From NCBI RefSeq assembly GCF_964204645.1, contig NC_134025.1, forward strand, positions 21,732,001-21,796,000: a stretch of DNA of 64,000 nt, in the 5' to 3' direction. A model generated the notes under the pieces. It was given only the letters and a program-made list of their open reading frames with translations. It made no database searches and was not told where the DNA came from. Positions 53,900 to 62,952 of the stretch are shown piece after piece; position 1 is the first letter of the stretch, and each line of letters starts with the position of its first letter. The stretch comes from Tubulanus polymorphus (taxonomy: Eukaryota; Nemertea; Palaeonemertea; Tubulaniformes; Tubulanidae). The translations under genes were made by a program, and so were the position numbers.

Positions 53900-53905
53900 T
53901 AAAAC
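53900..53905. repeat. left target-site duplication TAAAAC
   Basis: TAAAAC directly abuts the first base of the left terminal inverted repeat and matches TAAAAC at 62,737-62,742. Confidence 0.85.
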
Positions 53906-54662
53906 TATGGTGGCTGATAAGGGCCATAGCGTAAAATTCCTGGTATGTAAATGAGGGCGCCAGAACGCCAGAACGCCAAAACGAAAAAAAACGTCAAATT
54001 TTCTCTGAAAGTTCGTTTTGGCGCGCCAAAACAAAGAAAATTCCGTTTTGGCGCCCCCGCCAAAACGAACTTTCATTTTGGCGCCCCCGCCAAAACAACG
54101 AAAAATGTCGAAATTTCTCTAAAAGTTCGTTTTGGCGCGCCAAAACAAAGAAAATTCCGTTTTGGCGCCCCCGCCAAAACGAACTTTCATTTTGGCGCCC
54201 CCGCCAAAACGAACTTTCGTTTTGGCGCCCCCGCCAAAACAACGAAAAACGTCGAAATTTCTCTAAAAGTTCGTTTTGGCGCGCCAAAACGGAGAATATT
54301 CCGTTTTGGCGCCCCCGCCAAAACGAACTTTCGTTTTGGCGCCCCCGCCAAAACGAACTTTCGTTTTGGCCCCCCCGCCAAAACAACGAAAAACGTCGAA
54401 ATTTCTCTAAAAGTTCGTTTTGGCGCGCCAAAACAAAGAAAATTCCGTTTTGGCGCCCCCGCCAAAACGAACTTTCATTTTGGCGCCCCCGCCAAAACGA
54501 ACTTTCGTTTTGGCGCCCCCGCCAAAACAACGAAAAACGTCGAAATTTCTCTAAAAGTTCGTTTTGGCGCGCCAAAACAAAGAAAATTCCGTTTTGGCGC
54601 CCCCGCCAAAACGAACTTTCATTTTGGCGCCCCCGCCAAAACGAACTTTCGTTTTGGCGCCC
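53906..54662. repeat. left terminal inverted repeat with 144-bp array
   Basis: 757 bp. After a unique outer part (to about 53,985, including GCGCCAGAACGCC) come about five units. The marker GTCGAAATTTCTCTAAAAG stands at 54,107, 54,251, 54,395 and 54,539, exactly 144 bp apart; the first unit is 29 bp short, missing one subrepeat. Each unit has TTTTGGCGCGCCAAAA (a perfect 16-bp palindrome) and two or three TTTTGGCGCCCCCGCCAAAA words separated by GAACTTTCGTT. As 144 is divisible by 3 and the unit has no stop in several frames, long false open frames appear on both strands. Confidence 0.95.
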
Positions 54663-54836
54663 CGGAAACGTGTCTACTCCAGATGCTGACATACAAATTA
54701 TGTACATACGCATACGTACTCGTGCACGACCGCTTAATTATAATGGACACCGTTCGGACTTGTATCCTTTTACGTAATAAAGACCAAGTTGCTCAACGGT
54801 CGATTTTGCTGTTGATCTTGTTGATGATCTTAACAG

Positions 54837-56875
54837 ATTCCTCTAGTTGATGATACTGTTAGGAAGCTTTTTGCAGATGGGTACACAAATGCAGAAATGA
54901 GGATTGCCATGTTATCTAACTTCGGAATAACTATTAGGTACGTATATATAAATTCCATGGCCTACATCAAGATGGTCTAAGAATAGATTTTAATTGTCTG
55001 CAGCTACGTATGGGCACTGCCATTTTTATTCAATATTACTCCTTATAATGATGTGATATAGTAGTTTAGTTCACAAACCGTCTTGTTTATTTTAAACTTT
55101 CAGTGAACGCCACCTCAAACGACAATTGAATAGGTTAGGTTTGAAAAGAAACAACAATTACGTTCTCAATGACGTAACCGCTGCAGTCGAGGAAAGTAAT
55201 CCGAATTTTTGAATTGATGCTTATATCTGATAGAAATTGAAAATGTCTTTTGGGTTTAAGATTATGTTCTCTGCATTATTACAGGTTGAGCTTGCTGGCA
55301 GCGGATGTTGCATGGGATATCGTGCTATGTCACAACGTCTCCGTCAACGCTACGGAATAAGAGCCCCTAGGTAAGATGTATGATCGGGTGGCTACCTACA
55401 CGGTTAATTCCTGACATGATAAATGAGGGCGCTAAAGTACCAAACACTTCACTCATGTGTTATATGATTGTTTACTTCTAGGTCTCTAGTTTCCAATATC
55501 CTTCAGAATTTAGACTTCGAAGGAGTACAGAATAGGACCCATGGAGTTTTAAGACGACGACGTTACTTTAACAAGGGTCCCAATTATCTTGTCCATCTCG
55601 ATGGTTATGACAAGCTCAAGCCTTTTGGTTTCCCGATTCATGGGTGTATAGATGGGTAAACATAATATATAATTGATATATCCATAAAGATATTATTTCC
55701 ACCTATCAACAGCAGTTGCTATAAGTTCAGAATTTGGTTTGTCGAACATGTTCATAAACACAGTCTATATTTAAAAGATTTTCCTGACGAATCCTTTGGT
55801 TAAGAGTTGGAAATACTAATAATGACCCAGAGGTGGTTGCGTGGTACTTTTTAGATTTCGTTCAGGACATTGAAGGTAGATAGAATTGTCATATATAAAT
55901 ACACAATGTGCCGAAATTATGCCTGGTAAAAATTATCTGTTATCAATCGTCGATTAAGATAATACTCTGACCGTCATCTTTATATCATCATTCAGCAGTT
56001 CCTCGCTGCATCCGTATGGACGCTGGAACCGAAAATGGCAGAATTGCAGCGATTCAGAAGGCCTTTAGAGCAGAATATGACGACGAAACGTGCGTTCTTG
56101 TGGGTAGATCTACGAGTAATCAGGTTCGTGGTGTCATTAATATGGGTAGATTTGGACAATCCCCATTTCTGCGCTAGAACCAACTTAAGATACTTCAAAA
56201 CTCACCAATTATTTTATTTTTCTTTGTTTTAAGCGCATTGAACGATGGTGGCGAAGTCTTCGAAACGAAGTTGTTCAGTTTTGGATGAACGTATTTAAAG
56301 ATATGGAGGAAAATGGAAGTCTATCTACCGCGGACGTTGTGCACATGTAGGTTAAATACCCGCCTTTAAAGCGCGTGGCGATTTTTTGTGATCCACGTAG
56401 TAATTTCCCTTTCTCCAATATTTTTCAGTCAAACCTTAAGATACTGTTTTTTTGATTTGATAAATGCCGATCTTCAGGATTTCGTGCAGGAGTGGAATAC
56501 ACATGCCATCAGGCCTCAACGAAATGTGGATGTTCCACCCGGAAAACCTGATCTATTATACTTCTCGCCGGAATATTACGGTACGAAATACGCTGTATAA
56601 AAATGAGCATAGGTTTCTAAGTTTACGATGTTTTTATCACTTCTTGATAATACGAAATAATATTTTCAGGCACGATAGACTACAAATTTCCAGTGGACGC
56701 TGGACTACTTCCGCAAATTCGAGAGGAATTTTGTAGTAAGCCGAATGAATCGAGAGGCTGTGATCCGGACTTTTCAGCGATGTGTGATCTTATAACGAGG
56801 CAGGGACAACAATCAAGACCGACATCAACCCCAGAAGCCGCTGCTTTGTATGACTGGCTATTAACTCAATTCTGA
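54837..56875 (+). pseudogene. integrase-fold DDE transposase, disrupted
   Basis: Exons: 54837-54937, 55104-55195, 55285-55370, 55482-55655, 55778-55875, 55996-56123, 56234-56346, 56429-56580, 56670-56875 (TGA). The N-terminal helix-turn-helix-like part (GYTNAEMRIAMLS...ERHLKRQLNRLGL) is followed by a basic ERxxxLRRRRY-like linker (RTHGVLRRRRYFNKGPNY) and a retroviral-integrase-type core. Candidate catalytic residues are Asp in HLDGYDKL, Asp in RMDAGTENG and Glu in NQRIERWWRS. Two defects: an in-frame TGA at 55785-55787 where relatives read Arg (GFS-stop-RILWL), most simply a CGA-to-TGA change; and a one-base phase conflict between exons 2 and 3, avoidable only with a weak donor at 55185. The first exon with the start is not located; the frame has TAA at 54831-54833. 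Confidence 0.85.
55785..55787 (+). other. premature TGA in the transposase
   Basis: Lies between codons for Phe-Ser and Arg-Ile-Leu-Trp, directly before the conserved loop after the first catalytic Asp. The next codon is CGA, and a single C-to-T change in a CGA codon would explain the stop. Confidence 0.8.
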
Positions 56876-57597
56876 GAGCATACATGTTAGAATCATTTTT
56901 ATACGTATCTGTCCTGCACGGTTTATGTGTTGTCTGTTCATGATGTATTTCGAAGATTCAAATATATCTATGATACACGTTACGCGTTGAAAAGAATATG
57001 ATTGTAATTTTTCATGGATTCATGCGACTGTTTGGGCTTAGTAATACATCATACTAACACTACCCATGTTTTAATTCGCTATCCAACCCCATCTTAAGTA
57101 GGTGTCTCAGAAATAGAATACGCGTGCCATCAATTTACATGGAGAATTATCTGCGAAAGCGTACTCCAGTATCCGCTATTCTCAAAACGCTTCAGAATAA
57201 ATTTGCGTATGGTTCAAAAAGATGTATTTTTGATTAAATTTATTTTGAGAAAGTTCTATGAAGCGGTTGTTTAAAAAGTGGTCTTATGGACAAGTCACAT
57301 ATCTTTCATCCTCGCATGCCAGGGGTCTGGTATCGCACCCCGAACTCGTTTCCACCACCCCCTGGCCTCACGACGCGTGATTTCATTACTGGTTGAAATA
57401 CCTCCTTGTACGTTGATTGGTCCATTTAACGGGAAAATCAACAGAAGCCTATAATATCGTTTGCTTAAAGCGCTGTGATTGGTACGACCGGATTCTGGTC
57501 GGCTAGTAACGACTCCAACGACTCGCGAGGTCAAGGGGTTCGGGGAACACGGCTTTAGCTTAGTGAATTCGATTCCCACGACAGGTGAAGATGCATA

Positions 57598-57771
57598 CAT
57601 TGGAACCTCGTTACAACGAACCTCTGGGGACCAGAAAATATTGTTCATTTTAACAGATATTTCGTCATATCCAGTGTGAAATTAATCAAATTGTCTAATG
57701 TGGGACACAATCTTGTATTTGTTATGTCCGATGAATCGTTGTATCCCAGTTAGTTATAACGAGTTCCACTG
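57598..57771. mobile_element. nested 174-bp TA-flanked MITE (mariner/pogo-like)
   Basis: Ends CATTGGAACCTCGTTACAAC and (reverse complement of the right end) CAGTGGAACTCGTTATAACT, flanked by TA at 57596-57597 and 57772-57773. A TA target and CAGTGGAACCTCGTTATAAC-type termini are typical of Tc1/mariner-pogo derived MITEs. It was inserted after the host transposon. Confidence 0.85.
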
Positions 57772-58168
57772 TATCTCTATATGAATGTGCAATTTTGACA
57801 GTATATAATTTAATCGTGTTCGAATACGTGCCAATGACACTTTCGTACTACGATATCATTTGCAGCTCGAGTGAAAGTGAGACACCATGAAAGAACGAAA
57901 ACGCAATGAAGTGAAGATATTTGAATATTTTAATCGAAGTTTCAAAGTTTCTCTTAAAAGCCTTAAAACATTATCTACGTTTTAATACCGTGTTGATACA
58001 ATATATCAATATGTACTTAAAGATGATTGTCTTACAATTTCGAGACAAAACATAACTTGACAGCAGAGAAGTGGCACCCCCAAATCGCCCTGTTTTCAAT
58101 ACAAACAAAAAACGTATTTGGTCATGATTGATTCCCTAATTTGAAACGACAAATATAAGGAGCAAGTT

Positions 58169-58265
58169 TAACAGCTCTCGGTAAGGTTTGACTCGAGAGT
58201 CAAGTCGGTTTTTTTCAATATTTCCAATGCTTTAACTCTAGAGTCAAACTTAACCGAGAACTGTA
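58169..58265. repeat. inverted repeat between the two transposon genes
   Basis: ACAGCTCTCGGTAAGGTTTGACTC-GAGAGT and, 36 bases on, AACTCTAGAGTCAAACTTAACCGAGAACTGT pair with few mismatches (arms of about 30 bp). It sits 200-300 bp beyond the HECT stop codon, in the convergent 3' region. Confidence 0.8.
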
Positions 58266-58480
58266 GAACCTGGTCAAAATGCACTGCATGAATAATTACT
58301 TCTATCATCAAAAAGATCGTCACTAAGTAATTCTATGATAAAAGAAACGACATCAGGGCTGGCAATATTAAAAATAAACACACCACTTTTGGCCTAAACA
58401 AAAGAACTTAAACACGTTTTGATCCAACTTTGAAAATATGAAACTTACGTGGATTACGTCATTTCGTTTCTAGAATAATT

Positions 58481-61083
58481 TTATACGACGTCCATAACCC
58501 AAACATTGCTCTGGAGAATATTATCGAATTCTTGTTTCAGTTCGACGTATTCGTCATATGTTTCTGGTAACTCCAATATCTGGGCACATGTTCGAGCAAC
58601 TGGAGCTCGTTGGAGACCGTCTACCTTAGTAAAGGTCACGTCAATCTTTTGGCAGTTACAGATGTCAGAACCAGTACAATAGCGGAGGAACTTAGACAAC
58701 ATGCTTTCATCCAATGATCTGACATATCTCTTCAGTAACGTAGCAACATTTGACTGAGGAGCTGACAAAACGTTTGGAAAAGAAAGTAATTCTACCACTT
58801 TGCGACAGGAGGGTTTAAGATCCGTACAAAGATCGAGGTACTGTTTATATGATATTGTTACATATTTCTGTATCATAGGTTTTATACAATCAACTATAAA
58901 TCTCGGCTTTTGCACCAATTCCTGGTGACTAATTTCCCGAATCAACATGGAGAAGTTCTCCTTCGTAGGAAGTTTCCGACATTCATATCCCCCCAGTATG
59001 TCTATTATCTCTTCGACGTCATTTGCTTCATCATCGAAATTAGCCAATGCGCGTCGAAATACCAGCTCCTCAGACGGAGAAACATATTTCAGGAATGATT
59101 CGACCAAGTCTACGCTATCATCCTGCTGGAAGAACAATTCGGAAACAAATGGCTGCGCGAGGAATATTGGGAAATATGATGTTTCCTGAAATCCTTTACT
59201 GATGATGCGTCCTACAGCCTCCCATTTCTCTGTGCCATAATCATGGCGTATGAGAGGGATCATCTGACTACTACCCGTCATACATTGCTTTCTAAACTCT
59301 GACCAAAATTCAGTAAGACACTCTCGAAAGACACCGTGTCCTTCTCCGGCTTCAACATTTCCATTAGGGAGTATCATTCGAGCATTTATTATTTTCCCCA
59401 TCACCGATGCATCACAAAAAGCGTTTATCATATCTTCGACCATGGCTGTTCTGCGAACCAGAAGGTTGTATTCTTCCCGTTCAATGCGATTAATCTCTTC
59501 TTGTGATAACTCGCCACTCGTCTGTACTCTGAATTGAATTGTAGGCGTATCAGGCTGTATCAATTCGAAATCATTAAAGTTGATATCTGCTATACCATCA
59601 CGGGAATGTGTATCATTTGCACCCGTATGTATGCCAACAGCACCGGTAGGCACATAACCAGACTGAATCCCGGCCGCAAATGGAGTTGAAAGTGTATGGG
59701 CAGATTGGGTATGCGTAGTTAAAACGATAGGTTGAATATCACTACTAGCCGAAATTGTAGATGAGGCTGCTGGCGTAAACGACAATGCCGGTTGCATCAA
59801 CGAAAACATAGGTAAAGTTGACTCAGAAATCGGTGGCTGGTGGGTATTAGCAAGAAAGGATGACATGGATGGCAAGGATGTTTCATCATCACTATCGTCA
59901 ACTAAAACAGTTGTGTGAAGATAGAGCCTAATAGGGTTTGTTTTATGTGCTGCGATGTAGGCCTCTAGACCAAAAACATTACCACACTCAAGATAATCAC
60001 ATAACCGATTACCATTGAAATTTGCTAAGTAATAGCTCACATCATTGATTTTTAGGTTCATCGCATTCGATTTGCCGTCTGGAAAAAATAGGTTTAAGAA
60101 CTCCATGGTTAAGGCCGACAAGTTCATTTCTTTTTTCAGGTCCAAAGTGTGTGTCCCCCCACCCTTGCTTGCAGTAACTAGTACAAAGGTCCCGCTTTTG
60201 ATGGCGTGTTTCCAACCTAGTTTTATTCGTCGTGTATCTTTCTCTGCATTTTTTGTCGTCATTGATTTCTTGGTGCCGGCCTTCCGTTTTTGAAATTGCG
60301 TTCTCAACCTGCACAAAACACTAGATGATCCTGAAAATGAAATAATAAAGGAAAGTGTTATATATTTCAAGTAAACAATTTACAAATTTGTAAAAAGATC
60401 CATTGATCGCAGACCCGTCGTAAGTCGAATCGCAAGGATAGAACAAGTTCTATTTCAGCGATGAGTTATGCGTCAAATGACCTTTGGACTCGGCGATGAT
60501 TGAATCGTTGTCGATCTGACTGTGACAAACGAATCGCCAATCGGCGGTCACGTGTTTACTACCGCTGTTTTTACGACGAGATGGTCGTCGTAAGTCGACC
60601 TCAGCTTAGCTTAATCACGAGAAATAGGCACAAGCCTTCATAACCTCTCTAAAAGTATAACCCTCTGATAGCACAATCTCATGGACAGAATTGAATTAGC
60701 GTAACGGTCAGTGACAACGGTCATGAAAGTTGGAATTAAGCACGTGATTTATCTTAAAACTCAAATTATTACCTGCACTAGACACATTTTCATCTTCTTT
60801 AGGCTGAGAATTTACTATCCTACACCTATTCCTTAGCCGGACTCTATCCCCGATAGCTGTAACTCCTGCTGCTTCAAAATCACTATCTGTCATGGTCGTG
60901 ACGTCACTAACACCTATCTGGATGAGAAATTAAAATATGATACATTTTCAGAAGTTATGGCCCTATAGCATTACCAATCGGGGCAAGTCTGTGTATACAT
61001 AAAGTATTGAAACACGGTACCTTATTTTCGAGAAACTTTGCAATGTATTGGCCTAATCCCAATTCTAGGAGTATGTTGTCCAT
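58481..61083 (-). CDS. SAM-HECT E3 ubiquitin-ligase-like protein of the transposon
   Basis: Three coding exons join in phase: 61083-61021, 60917-60773, 60330-58481, giving 685 residues. ATG 61083-61081 follows an acceptor-like TTCTTTACAG, so a 5' UTR intron is likely. Residues 1 to about 65 form a SAM domain (LLELGLGQYIAKFLENKIGV, then MTDSDFEAAGVTAIGDRVRL). Residues about 95-200 hold a GGGT...LFFPDGKS module seen in HECT proteins of fish and invertebrate genomes. A Ser/Thr/Pro-rich linker follows, then a HECT domain from about residue 360: NVEAGEGHGVFRE matches the N-lobe GxDxGGxxRE region, and APVARTCAQILELP matches the C-lobe active site, with Cys 651 as the thioester residue. HECT ligases take ubiquitin from an E2 and pass it to a substrate. 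No stop or frameshift. The substrate is unknown, and so is whether it helps transposition. Confidence 0.9.
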
Positions 61084-61779
61084 CTGTAAAGAAGACATTT
61101 ACGAATTAACGCCATTGAATGATTATAATTCATTAGTTTTCACTAATGCAGACCGAGCAAAATAATCGTCGCTTACAATGATTAGGCAGTACGAGAGAAA
61201 CGGCTCACGTCGAAAACTTAGAATACTACCAGTACGTGTTATATTGCCTGCGCATACCAGAGAACGACATCGGTTTTTTTAATATGTTTTCAGCGGCCGA
61301 AAATCAATCGATTTTTAAAATATATTGGCATATTAAAGAACAAAGTTTATGAATAGGCCTATGTGAGCTAAGCAATGCGAGGCAATGTATAGGATTTAAA
61401 TGATACCAGGGGCTGATCCAGCATTTTTTAAGGAGTGGGGGTCGAGGGGGTACGGTGGTGCTCTGCTGGTCATCCCGAGAAATCTTAAAAACTTAGTCCC
61501 ATTTTCATGAATTGTAAGCGTTTTTAGGCGCTACTTGATCATCTCATACATTTAAGATGTAGGCCTAACATGTCTACTTTGAAAAGTAGTTTTCCAAGTG
61601 GGAGGGGTTCTCGAGGACCCGAAGCAACCCCTGCATTTAACCCTGAATAGGCTACATACCTGTTCGTTAGTCCGTTAATGTATACACCACCACCATCGAC
61701 AACGATATGTATTATCACGTATACCTAGATCCGACTCGTAACAAAATCGAAGGGAGACGAATCGGATTTTCAAAGAAAG

Positions 61780-62736
61780 TTCGACGTTTTTCGCTGTTTG
61801 GCGGGGGGCGCCAAAACGAAAGTTCATTTTGGCGGGGGCGCCAAAATGAAAGTTCGTTTTGGCGGGGGCGCCAAAACGGAATATTCTCCGTTTTGGCGCG
61901 CCAAAACGAACTTTTAGAGAAATTTCGACGTTTTTCGTTGTTTTGGCGGGGGCGCCAAAACGAAAGTTCGTTTTGGCGGGGGCGCCAAAATGAAAGTTCG
62001 TTTTGGCGGGGGCGCCAAAACGGAATATTCTCCGTTTTGGCGCGCCAAAACGAACTTTTAGAGAAATTTCGACGTTTTTCGTTGTTTTGGCGGGGGCGCC
62101 AAAACGAAAGTTCGTTTTGGCGGGGGCGCCAAAATGAAAGTTCGTTTTGGCGGGGGCGCCAAAACGGAATTTTCTTTGTTTTGGCGCGCCAAAACGAACT
62201 TTTAGAGAAATTTCGACGTTTTTCGTTGTTTTGGCGGGGGCGCCAAAACGAAAGTTCGTTTTGGCGGGGGCGCCAAAATGAAAGTTCGTTTTGGCGGGGG
62301 CGCCAAAACGGAATATTCTCCGTTTTGGCGCGCCAAAACGAACTTTTAGAGAAATTTCGACGTTTTTCGTTGTTTTGGCAGGGGCGCCAAAACGAAAGTT
62401 CGTTTTGGCGGGGGCGCCAAAATGAAAGTTCGTTTTGGCGGGGGCGCCAAAACGGAATATTCTCCGTTTTGGCGCGCCAAAACGAACTTTTAGAGAAATT
62501 TCGACGTTTTTCGTTGTTTTGGCGGGGGCGCCAAAACGAAAGTTCGTTTTGGCGGGGGCGCCAAAATGAAAGTTCGTTTTGGCGGGGGCGCCAAAACGGA
62601 ATTTTCTTTGTTTTGGCGCGCCAAAACGAACTTTCAGAGAAAATTGGACGTTTTTTTTCGTTTTGGCGTTCTGGCGTTCTGGCGCCCTCATTTACATACC
62701 AGGAATTTTACGCTATGGCCCTTATCAGCCACCATA
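61780..62736. repeat. right terminal inverted repeat with 144-bp array
   Basis: About 955 bp, inverted relative to the left end. The marker GACGTTTTTCGTTGTTTTGG stands at 61,927, 62,071, 62,215, 62,359 and 62,503, exactly 144 bp apart, with partial units at both sides (about 6 units). Units come in two variants, GGAATATTCTCCG and GGAATTTTCTTTG, arranged in a mixed order. The outer 85 bp match the left end. The plus- and minus-strand frames of more than 330 codons here are repeat artefacts. Confidence 0.95.
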
Positions 62737-62742
62737 TAAAAC
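62737..62742. repeat. right target-site duplication TAAAAC
   Basis: TAAAAC directly after the last base of the right inverted repeat (GCCACCATA), identical to 53,900-53,905. Confidence 0.85.
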
Positions 62743-62757
62743 AGCATAAAATGCTGA

Positions 62758-62952
62758 TATAAAGAATGGGGTCCGAGAGCAATTCGAAGGTTTATTGTCC
62801 TGCTGGCCTAGATGGCGGGCAGGGGTCTATTCCTACCTCGACTCAAAAACACAGAGAAGAATATAAAGAGTGGGGTCTGAGAGCAATTCGAAGGTTTAGT
62901 GTCCTGCTGGCTTAGCGGGCTGGCAGGGGTCTATTCCTACCTCAACTCAAAA
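62758..62952 (+). repeat. diverged tandem duplication, about 105 bp x 2
   Basis: AAAGAATGGGGTCCGAGAGCAATTCGAAGG...CAGGGGTCTATTCCTACCTCGACTC is followed by a second copy from about 62,865 with a few changes (AAAGAGTGGGGTCTGAGAGC). It lies immediately outside the transposon. Confidence 0.85.

Follow-up and report, generated by a model that had tools for sequence, protein, structure and literature searches.

Is a ubiquitin ligase a working part of a worm transposon, or did a ligase gene merely come to lie beside a transposase? The question is raised by a locus in a 64,000-nucleotide stretch of contig NC_134025.1 (hereafter the window) from the genome of Tubulanus polymorphus, a palaeonemertean ribbon worm (Nemertea). 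Window positions 53906-62736 are occupied by a DNA transposon of 8,831 bp, in which a DDE transposase gene on the forward strand and a gene for a SAM-HECT protein on the reverse strand converge tail to tail. Coordinates below are window positions unless a contig is named. We are highly confident that the element is an IS3EU-kind DNA transposon, that its SAM-HECT gene retains the catalytic cysteine, that the element has moved recently, and that the same pair of genes occurs in several transposase lineages.

Insertion and copies of the element

The element is bounded by terminal inverted repeats of 191 nt that differ by one mismatch (by direct reading and repeat search), with TAAAAC at both edges. 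An earlier sequence-only reading by a model, which had described inverted ends and a 6-bp target duplication, was right on both counts, although the arms are longer than the outer 85 bp it had named. That reading had also proposed looking for empty sites that carry a single TAAAAC. The sequence on the left flank is repetitive, and a genome search with it gives 58 matches, its own included. When the window flanks were joined at one TAAAAC and aligned to the six best paralogues of the surrounding repeat, the joint aligned without interruption in all six, with the element absent. Five of these empty paralogues have exactly one TAAAAC and the sixth differs at two bases, which shows that the element was inserted with a 6-bp duplication.

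Both genes recur in five further near-identical copies. Together with the window copy these make six on five contigs (two on C1, and one each on C4, C7, C8 and C10), with a fixed spacing of ~1.9 kb between HECT and transposase. The pairing of the two genes in one 8.83-kb unit is thus repeated, and where the sequence-only reading had reckoned with the chance that other copies of the termini would never contain the HECT gene, five do. Of the five other copies, four could be traced to both ends, and in each of these the two 6-bp flanks are identical (AATATG, GAAACT, TAAATC and ATATAT); in the C4 copy the left end was found and the right end was not found in the DNA fetched. The outermost 50 nt of the left repeat match at 50/50 positions at nine of the ten ends sought in these five copies. 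Near-identical copies and an empty site together demonstrate recent movement.

Most loci that bear the termini are smaller. From 150 listed matches to the terminal repeat, of 350 in all, 36 loci were clustered; among the matches listed, HECT is present in 5 and absent from 31, and at 27 of the latter the matches span less than 2 kb, as in short derivatives. Seven short loci were read closely: three have both ends and a 6-bp duplication and measure 626-1,334 bp, and for the other four a matching pair was not found.

The two genes

The transposase proved to be the DDE integrase-fold gene claimed by the sequence-only reading. Its joined core exons match the Pfam family PF24764 (rva_4; E 2.3e-37), and D144, D203 and E240, in the numbering of the NCBI model P0004, are invariant in alignments of 13 and 38 rows; their motif and spacing suggest that they form the catalytic triad. 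Fourteen copies were compared. All nine exon blocks (A to I, Table 1) are present and open in four of them, and the window and nine other copies have stops or missing or partial blocks. The stop in block E of the window copy is absent from the 12 other copies that cover the site. Given this in-frame stop, the window copy is probably not autonomous, despite its open HECT exon, and any mobilisation of it is likely to be in trans. A further difference lies in one intron, from which the window copy lacks ~160 bp that six of seven other copies tested retain, the seventh being unmeasured.

Two sets of copies may have multiplied by other means. Three window-family copies lie ~23 kb apart at C12:6.505, 6.528 and 6.551 Mb. 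Block G of the transposase contains a stop in all three, and this suggests a segmental duplication rather than three insertions. At C6:13.17 and C6:13.98 Mb (L057 and L058), ~0.8 Mb apart and on opposite strands, lie decayed transposases that are both 91.193% identical to that of the window; their equal identity and opposite strands make an inverted duplication probable.

The second gene is predicted to encode a protein of ~685 residues from three exons with GT-AG borders, as judged by reading. Pfam recognises SAM_1 (2e-8, above the curated cut-off) and, in the C-lobe part, HECT (7.3e-9; 36.1 bits against a cut-off of 23.9), so the SAM-HECT gene described earlier stands. A HECT profile built from three sequences finds UBE3C (E 4.5e-5) and HUWE1 (E 0.005) among proteins of the PDB. 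The catalytic cysteine aligns with the TC of UBE3C and is retained in six of seven aligned sequences, the exception being a decayed copy. The nearest PDB sequences to the SAM part are Bicaudal-C and Caskin, whose SAM domains form polymers. AlphaFold2, run on the HECT exon with a three-row alignment, gave a mean pLDDT of 34.

Six copies hold a complete and open stretch of 613 residues from the HECT exon, and in five of them it is identical. Exon 3 has eight variable sites across the six copies, six of them synonymous, where random mutation predicts 72% nonsynonymous changes (P = 0.007); its overall variability (0.44%), on the other hand, equals that downstream (0.47%) and is lower only than that upstream (1.34%, 20/1,495). 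The evidence for constraint on the HECT exon is thus modest.

Linkage across families and genomes

Two counts measured how often the pair recurs in the genome. In the first, all 57 matches of the window HECT query were used, and 123 transposase matches were reduced to about one row per locus. The 57 matches fall into 35 loci, and a transposase lies within 12 kb at 23, tail to tail in 23/23, where the chance is 0.0054 per HECT-protein locus. In the second, 85 Pfam HECT matches were resolved into 47 loci and compared with a transposase set of 32 of 40 plus 29 of 123 match rows, repeats per locus having been dropped. Here a transposase lies within 6 kb at 21 loci, again always tail to tail (21/21), against a chance expectation of 0.0028 per locus or ~0.13 loci in all; the unpaired loci presumably include ordinary host ligases. 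The counts are not independent and their union is 27 pairs, of which 14 are window-family copies. The most distant pairs (C1:17.44, C6:16.48, C6:16.90, C2:15.54, C2:16.14, C3:13.0 and C4:18.04 Mb) have transposases 30-35% identical to the query, with stops in several. HECT is therefore not the single-copy, syntenic gene that the sequence-only reading had named as the alternative: it is multi-copy and stands beside the transposase in diverged families too.

One of these is a second family. Its 12,653-bp element at C2:9566513-9579165 has 30/30 inverted ends, a CCGAAT duplication, the gene order of the window element (family 1) and the same outermost 13 bases. Another copy, at C6:17.98 Mb, is 98.6-98.7% identical in two main aligned blocks, with the right end only found, and a third, at C8:2.43 Mb, is known from matches and one 3.6-kb locus. 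Seven of the nine transposase blocks are 60-71% identical to those of the window, the N-terminal block 34% and the last block 54%. In the ligase gene, the SAM exon-2 block is 46% and the N-terminal domain 38-42% identical, and Pfam recognises the HECT C-lobe more strongly than the window's (E 8.1e-12). Compared with the window, family 2 (L083) is thus alike in SAM and N-terminal domain and unrecognisable by BLAST in HECT, and from this failure of detection the ligase module may have been exchanged between families.

The two families also share a feature of their ends. In the window element, tandem arrays of a 144-bp unit, inverted relative to each other, lie within and behind each terminal arm. 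The motif GTTTYNGCGC occurs 19 times in 53906-54663, 24 times in 61761-62736 and not at all in 54664-61760; the 43 occurrences often form palindromic pairs. The subterminal arrays of family 2 have a different sequence and the same dense motif, and in neither family does the motif occur in those parts of the element's body that were examined. A narrower reading was tried and dropped. TTTSSCGC is the E2F consensus, and it matches 23 and 30 times in the window arrays, never mid-element, and once in 13.8 kb of host flank. Family 2, however, has few TTTSSCGC relative to the wider GTTTYNGCGC (4 vs 18, 9 vs 38 and 20 vs 66), and GTTTYNGCGC is accordingly treated as a candidate, and likely, transposase site.

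A transposase profile retrieved 2,332 proteins from a protein database; among the 120 listed are proteins of starfish, sea urchin, sea cucumber, clam, scallop, abalone and corals, with Asterias, Haliotis, Acropora and Lytechinus among the genera. The HECT relatives in the same database are P0002, P0003 and P0001, the last being the worm's own, and P0002 retains both the VWVMD tail and the N-terminal domain. Proteins that combine this GGGT/RxYLxT domain with a HECT end are common in fish and coral annotations. Neither profile found a relative in viral contigs, nor did the HECT profile find one in phage records.

Relation to known transposons and the role of the ligase

The nearest known systems are the IS3EU/GingerRoot transposons, whose signature of TA..TA termini and a 6-bp target site duplication is given in PMC10045372, and whose fungal members have TAYGG..CCRTA termini (PMC12730594). 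Our criteria come from these two papers. The TATGG..CCATA termini of the window element and of family 2 fit the fungal pattern, and 6-bp duplications flank the window copy, four further family-1 copies, one family-2 copy and three of seven short derivatives. The transposase belongs to the IS3/IS481/integrase group of DDE enzymes, with its putative first catalytic D at residue 144, inside the range of 100-300 residues from the N-terminus. The HHCC zinc finger, which IS3EU transposases lack ahead of the core, was not seen on reading P0004, by inspection only and with the N-terminal part unscanned. What the element adds is the SAM-HECT gene and the long inverted subterminal arrays, a difference from the published descriptions; among Repbase entries there may be some with HECT.

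Extra genes are known in this group. Fungal IS3EU elements carry TET/JBP and alpha-kinase genes, the kinase gene opposite in orientation to the transposase (PMC12730594). Fungal and worm elements are thus alike in having a gene for a protein- or DNA-modifying enzyme beside the transposase; they differ in that the gene here encodes a HECT ligase and the host is an animal. Pfam scans of the element's two genes found no TET/JBP or kinase domain. Ginger1 transposons have a transposase that ends in an OTU or Ulp1 domain (PMC2836005) and make a 4-bp duplication (PMC10045372). They resemble the present element as integrase-type transposons bearing an enzyme of the ubiquitin or SUMO pathway, but theirs is a protease domain on the transposase, rather than a separate ligase gene, and their duplication is 4 bp rather than 6. 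When the transposase was scanned with Pfam, from block D through to the C-terminus, only rva_4 exceeded its cut-off, and no OTU or Ulp1 domain did.

Among animal HECT ligases, UBE3C and HUWE1 share with the worm protein a HECT C-lobe with a catalytic cysteine. They differ from it in that the latter has an N-terminal SAM and GGGT/RxYLxT domain, is borne by a transposon and has a hardly recognisable N-lobe. G2E3-like proteins are comparable as well. Literature searches, judged from titles and the opening lines of abstracts and not extending to subscription journals or to Repbase Reports, listed no paper that deals with HECT in IS3EU transposons; PMC8195603, in the part available, concerns other matters.

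The element probably works as follows. The transposase would bind the ends, perhaps at the palindromic GTTTYNGCGC arrays, and then cut and paste. The SAM domain of the ligase would self-associate, the conserved N-terminal domain would find a substrate, and the HECT domain would ubiquitinate it. The likeliest class of substrate would be a nuclear protein of the host that keeps the element in check, such as a silencing or chromatin factor, whose removal could open a window for transposition. Should the ligase have a real helper role, a host restraint factor would take about half of our expectation, the transposase or its complex a clearly smaller share, and DNA-repair or replication factors the smallest. 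The N-terminal module and the cysteine are kept, whereas the HECT part and the linker change, and on this pattern we expect that the docking partner is fixed and that the role is enzymatic. The TET/JBP and alpha-kinase genes of fungal IS3EU and the OTU and Ulp1 domains of Ginger1 provide precedent for modifier genes in related transposons.

Might the ligase act instead on the element's own transposase, limiting its amount or dismantling the stable strand-transfer complex after integration? We think this possible but not probable. The two genes adjoin in the same order in 27 pairs, as befits a functional unit, and a SAM domain nearest to those of the polymer-forming Bicaudal-C and Caskin could gather on many sites; yet related transposase lineages lack a recognisable HECT, and contact between transposase and ligase is conjectural. 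Far less likely is that a host SAM-HECT gene was captured once and has been carried unused. It is true that the function of the HECT protein is predicted from sequence, that derivatives have spread in its absence (31 of 36 terminal loci among the matches listed), and that the overall variability of its exon is not below that downstream. However, HECT also stands beside transposases merely 30-35% identical to the window's, and a pair present in several transposase lineages cannot stem from one copy having captured the gene once; moreover, the 613-residue stretch is open in all six whole copies, in two of which the transposase is broken, and substitutions in the HECT exon are mostly synonymous. 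That two separate insertions or an assembly join made neighbours of HECT and transposase by chance has no point in its favour and is refuted by the repeated copies at fixed spacing, the duplications of their own read at both ends in five copies, and the empty sites for the window copy.

Several observations weigh against our preferred reading, that of a two-gene IS3EU-kind transposon whose ligase assists it. The target, expression and activity of the ligase are predicted only. Its HECT domain is diverged in the window family, where Pfam recognises the C-lobe part alone; that of family 2 goes undetected by BLAST with the family-1 HECT, and the family-2 SAM piece alone scores 18 bits, under the Pfam cut-off of 23. 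The constraint test is based on eight sites, and the variability of the HECT exon (8/1,839) is not below the 0.47% (7/1,496) downstream. A HECT profile search of the protein database, which needs shared exact words, returned only three relatives, one of them the worm's own, against 2,332 for the transposase. Linkage is incomplete in both directions. Of the 35 HECT-protein loci, 12 lack a transposase match within 12 kb, although one of them, at C2:18.63 Mb, has transposase blocks A-C beside SAM exons, tail to tail, by reading. Conversely, no HECT-domain match lies within 6 kb of 38 of the 59 transposase loci; six of these have a HECT-protein match in the 12-kb count, and a seventh (C8:2.448 Mb) was merged there with a paired locus. 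One HECT-less lineage (L039-L043, at C4:17.38, C3:15.41, C7:11.94, C1:20.20 and C1:15.69 Mb) is IS3EU-like, with an intron-free transposase 40-42% identical to the query and no HECT match nearby; at three of its five loci the transposase is intact, with 400-401 residues. HECT is therefore not required by every IS3EU-like element here.

The broadest reading would give IS3EU elements of animals SAM-HECT as their ancient second gene, would make the two genes a ubiquitin-assisted system, and would count many multi-copy HECT genes annotated in invertebrates as genes of transposons rather than of the host; we see this as evenly balanced between true and false. Among the enzymes known from related transposons are deubiquitinases, SUMO proteases, kinases and DNA demethylases, and a standing ubiquitin ligase would place a writer beside erasers. 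It becomes a testable question which host protein is tagged by the transposon, and whether the element is thereby released from silencing. For annotators there is a warning, in that an expanded set of HECT genes in an invertebrate genome may belong to transposons.

Table 1. Positions of the transposon's ends, arrays and gene parts in the window
Feature	Position	Strand	Remarks
Target site duplication, left copy	53900..53905	.	TAAAAC; single TAAAAC at 5/6 paralogous empty sites
Left terminal inverted repeat	53906..54096	+	191 nt, starts TATGGTGGCTGATAAGGGCC
Left subterminal array	54046..54663	+	4.3 copies of 144-bp unit rich in palindromic GTTTYNGCGC motifs
Transposase gene	54700..56875	+	DDE integrase-type, Pfam PF24764, multi-exon; exon 1 from NCBI model P0004
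Transposase block A	54846..54935	+	conserved
Transposase block B	55102..55191	+	splice donor ambiguous
Transposase block C	55285..55371	+	
Transposase block D	55483..55656	+	first catalytic D (putative)
Transposase block E	55776..55874	+	in-frame stop at 55785-55787 in window copy
Transposase block F	55998..56123	+	second catalytic D (putative)
Transposase block G	56234..56347	+	catalytic E (putative)
Transposase block H	56430..56582	+	
Transposase block I	56672..56875	+	with stop codon
SAM-HECT exon 3	58481..60330	-	conserved N-terminal domain, low-complexity linker, HECT domain, stop
HECT C-lobe region	58484..58759	-	conserved catalytic cysteine (ARTCAQILELPETY)
Conserved N-terminal domain	59912..60232	-	107 residues, GWKH..GGGT..FFPDG..RLYLHT; common to diverged families and P0002
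SAM-HECT exon 2	60773..60917	-	rest of SAM domain; splice sites by reading
SAM-HECT exon 1	61021..61083	-	start of SAM domain; splice sites by reading
Right subterminal array	61774..62668	-	6.2 copies of 144-bp unit
Right terminal inverted repeat	62546..62736	-	191 nt
Target site duplication, right copy	62737..62742	.	TAAAAC

Just right of the insertion, at 62757-62952, lie 1.9 copies of a 104-bp tandem repeat, part of a dispersed repeat whose relatives occur on several chromosomes.

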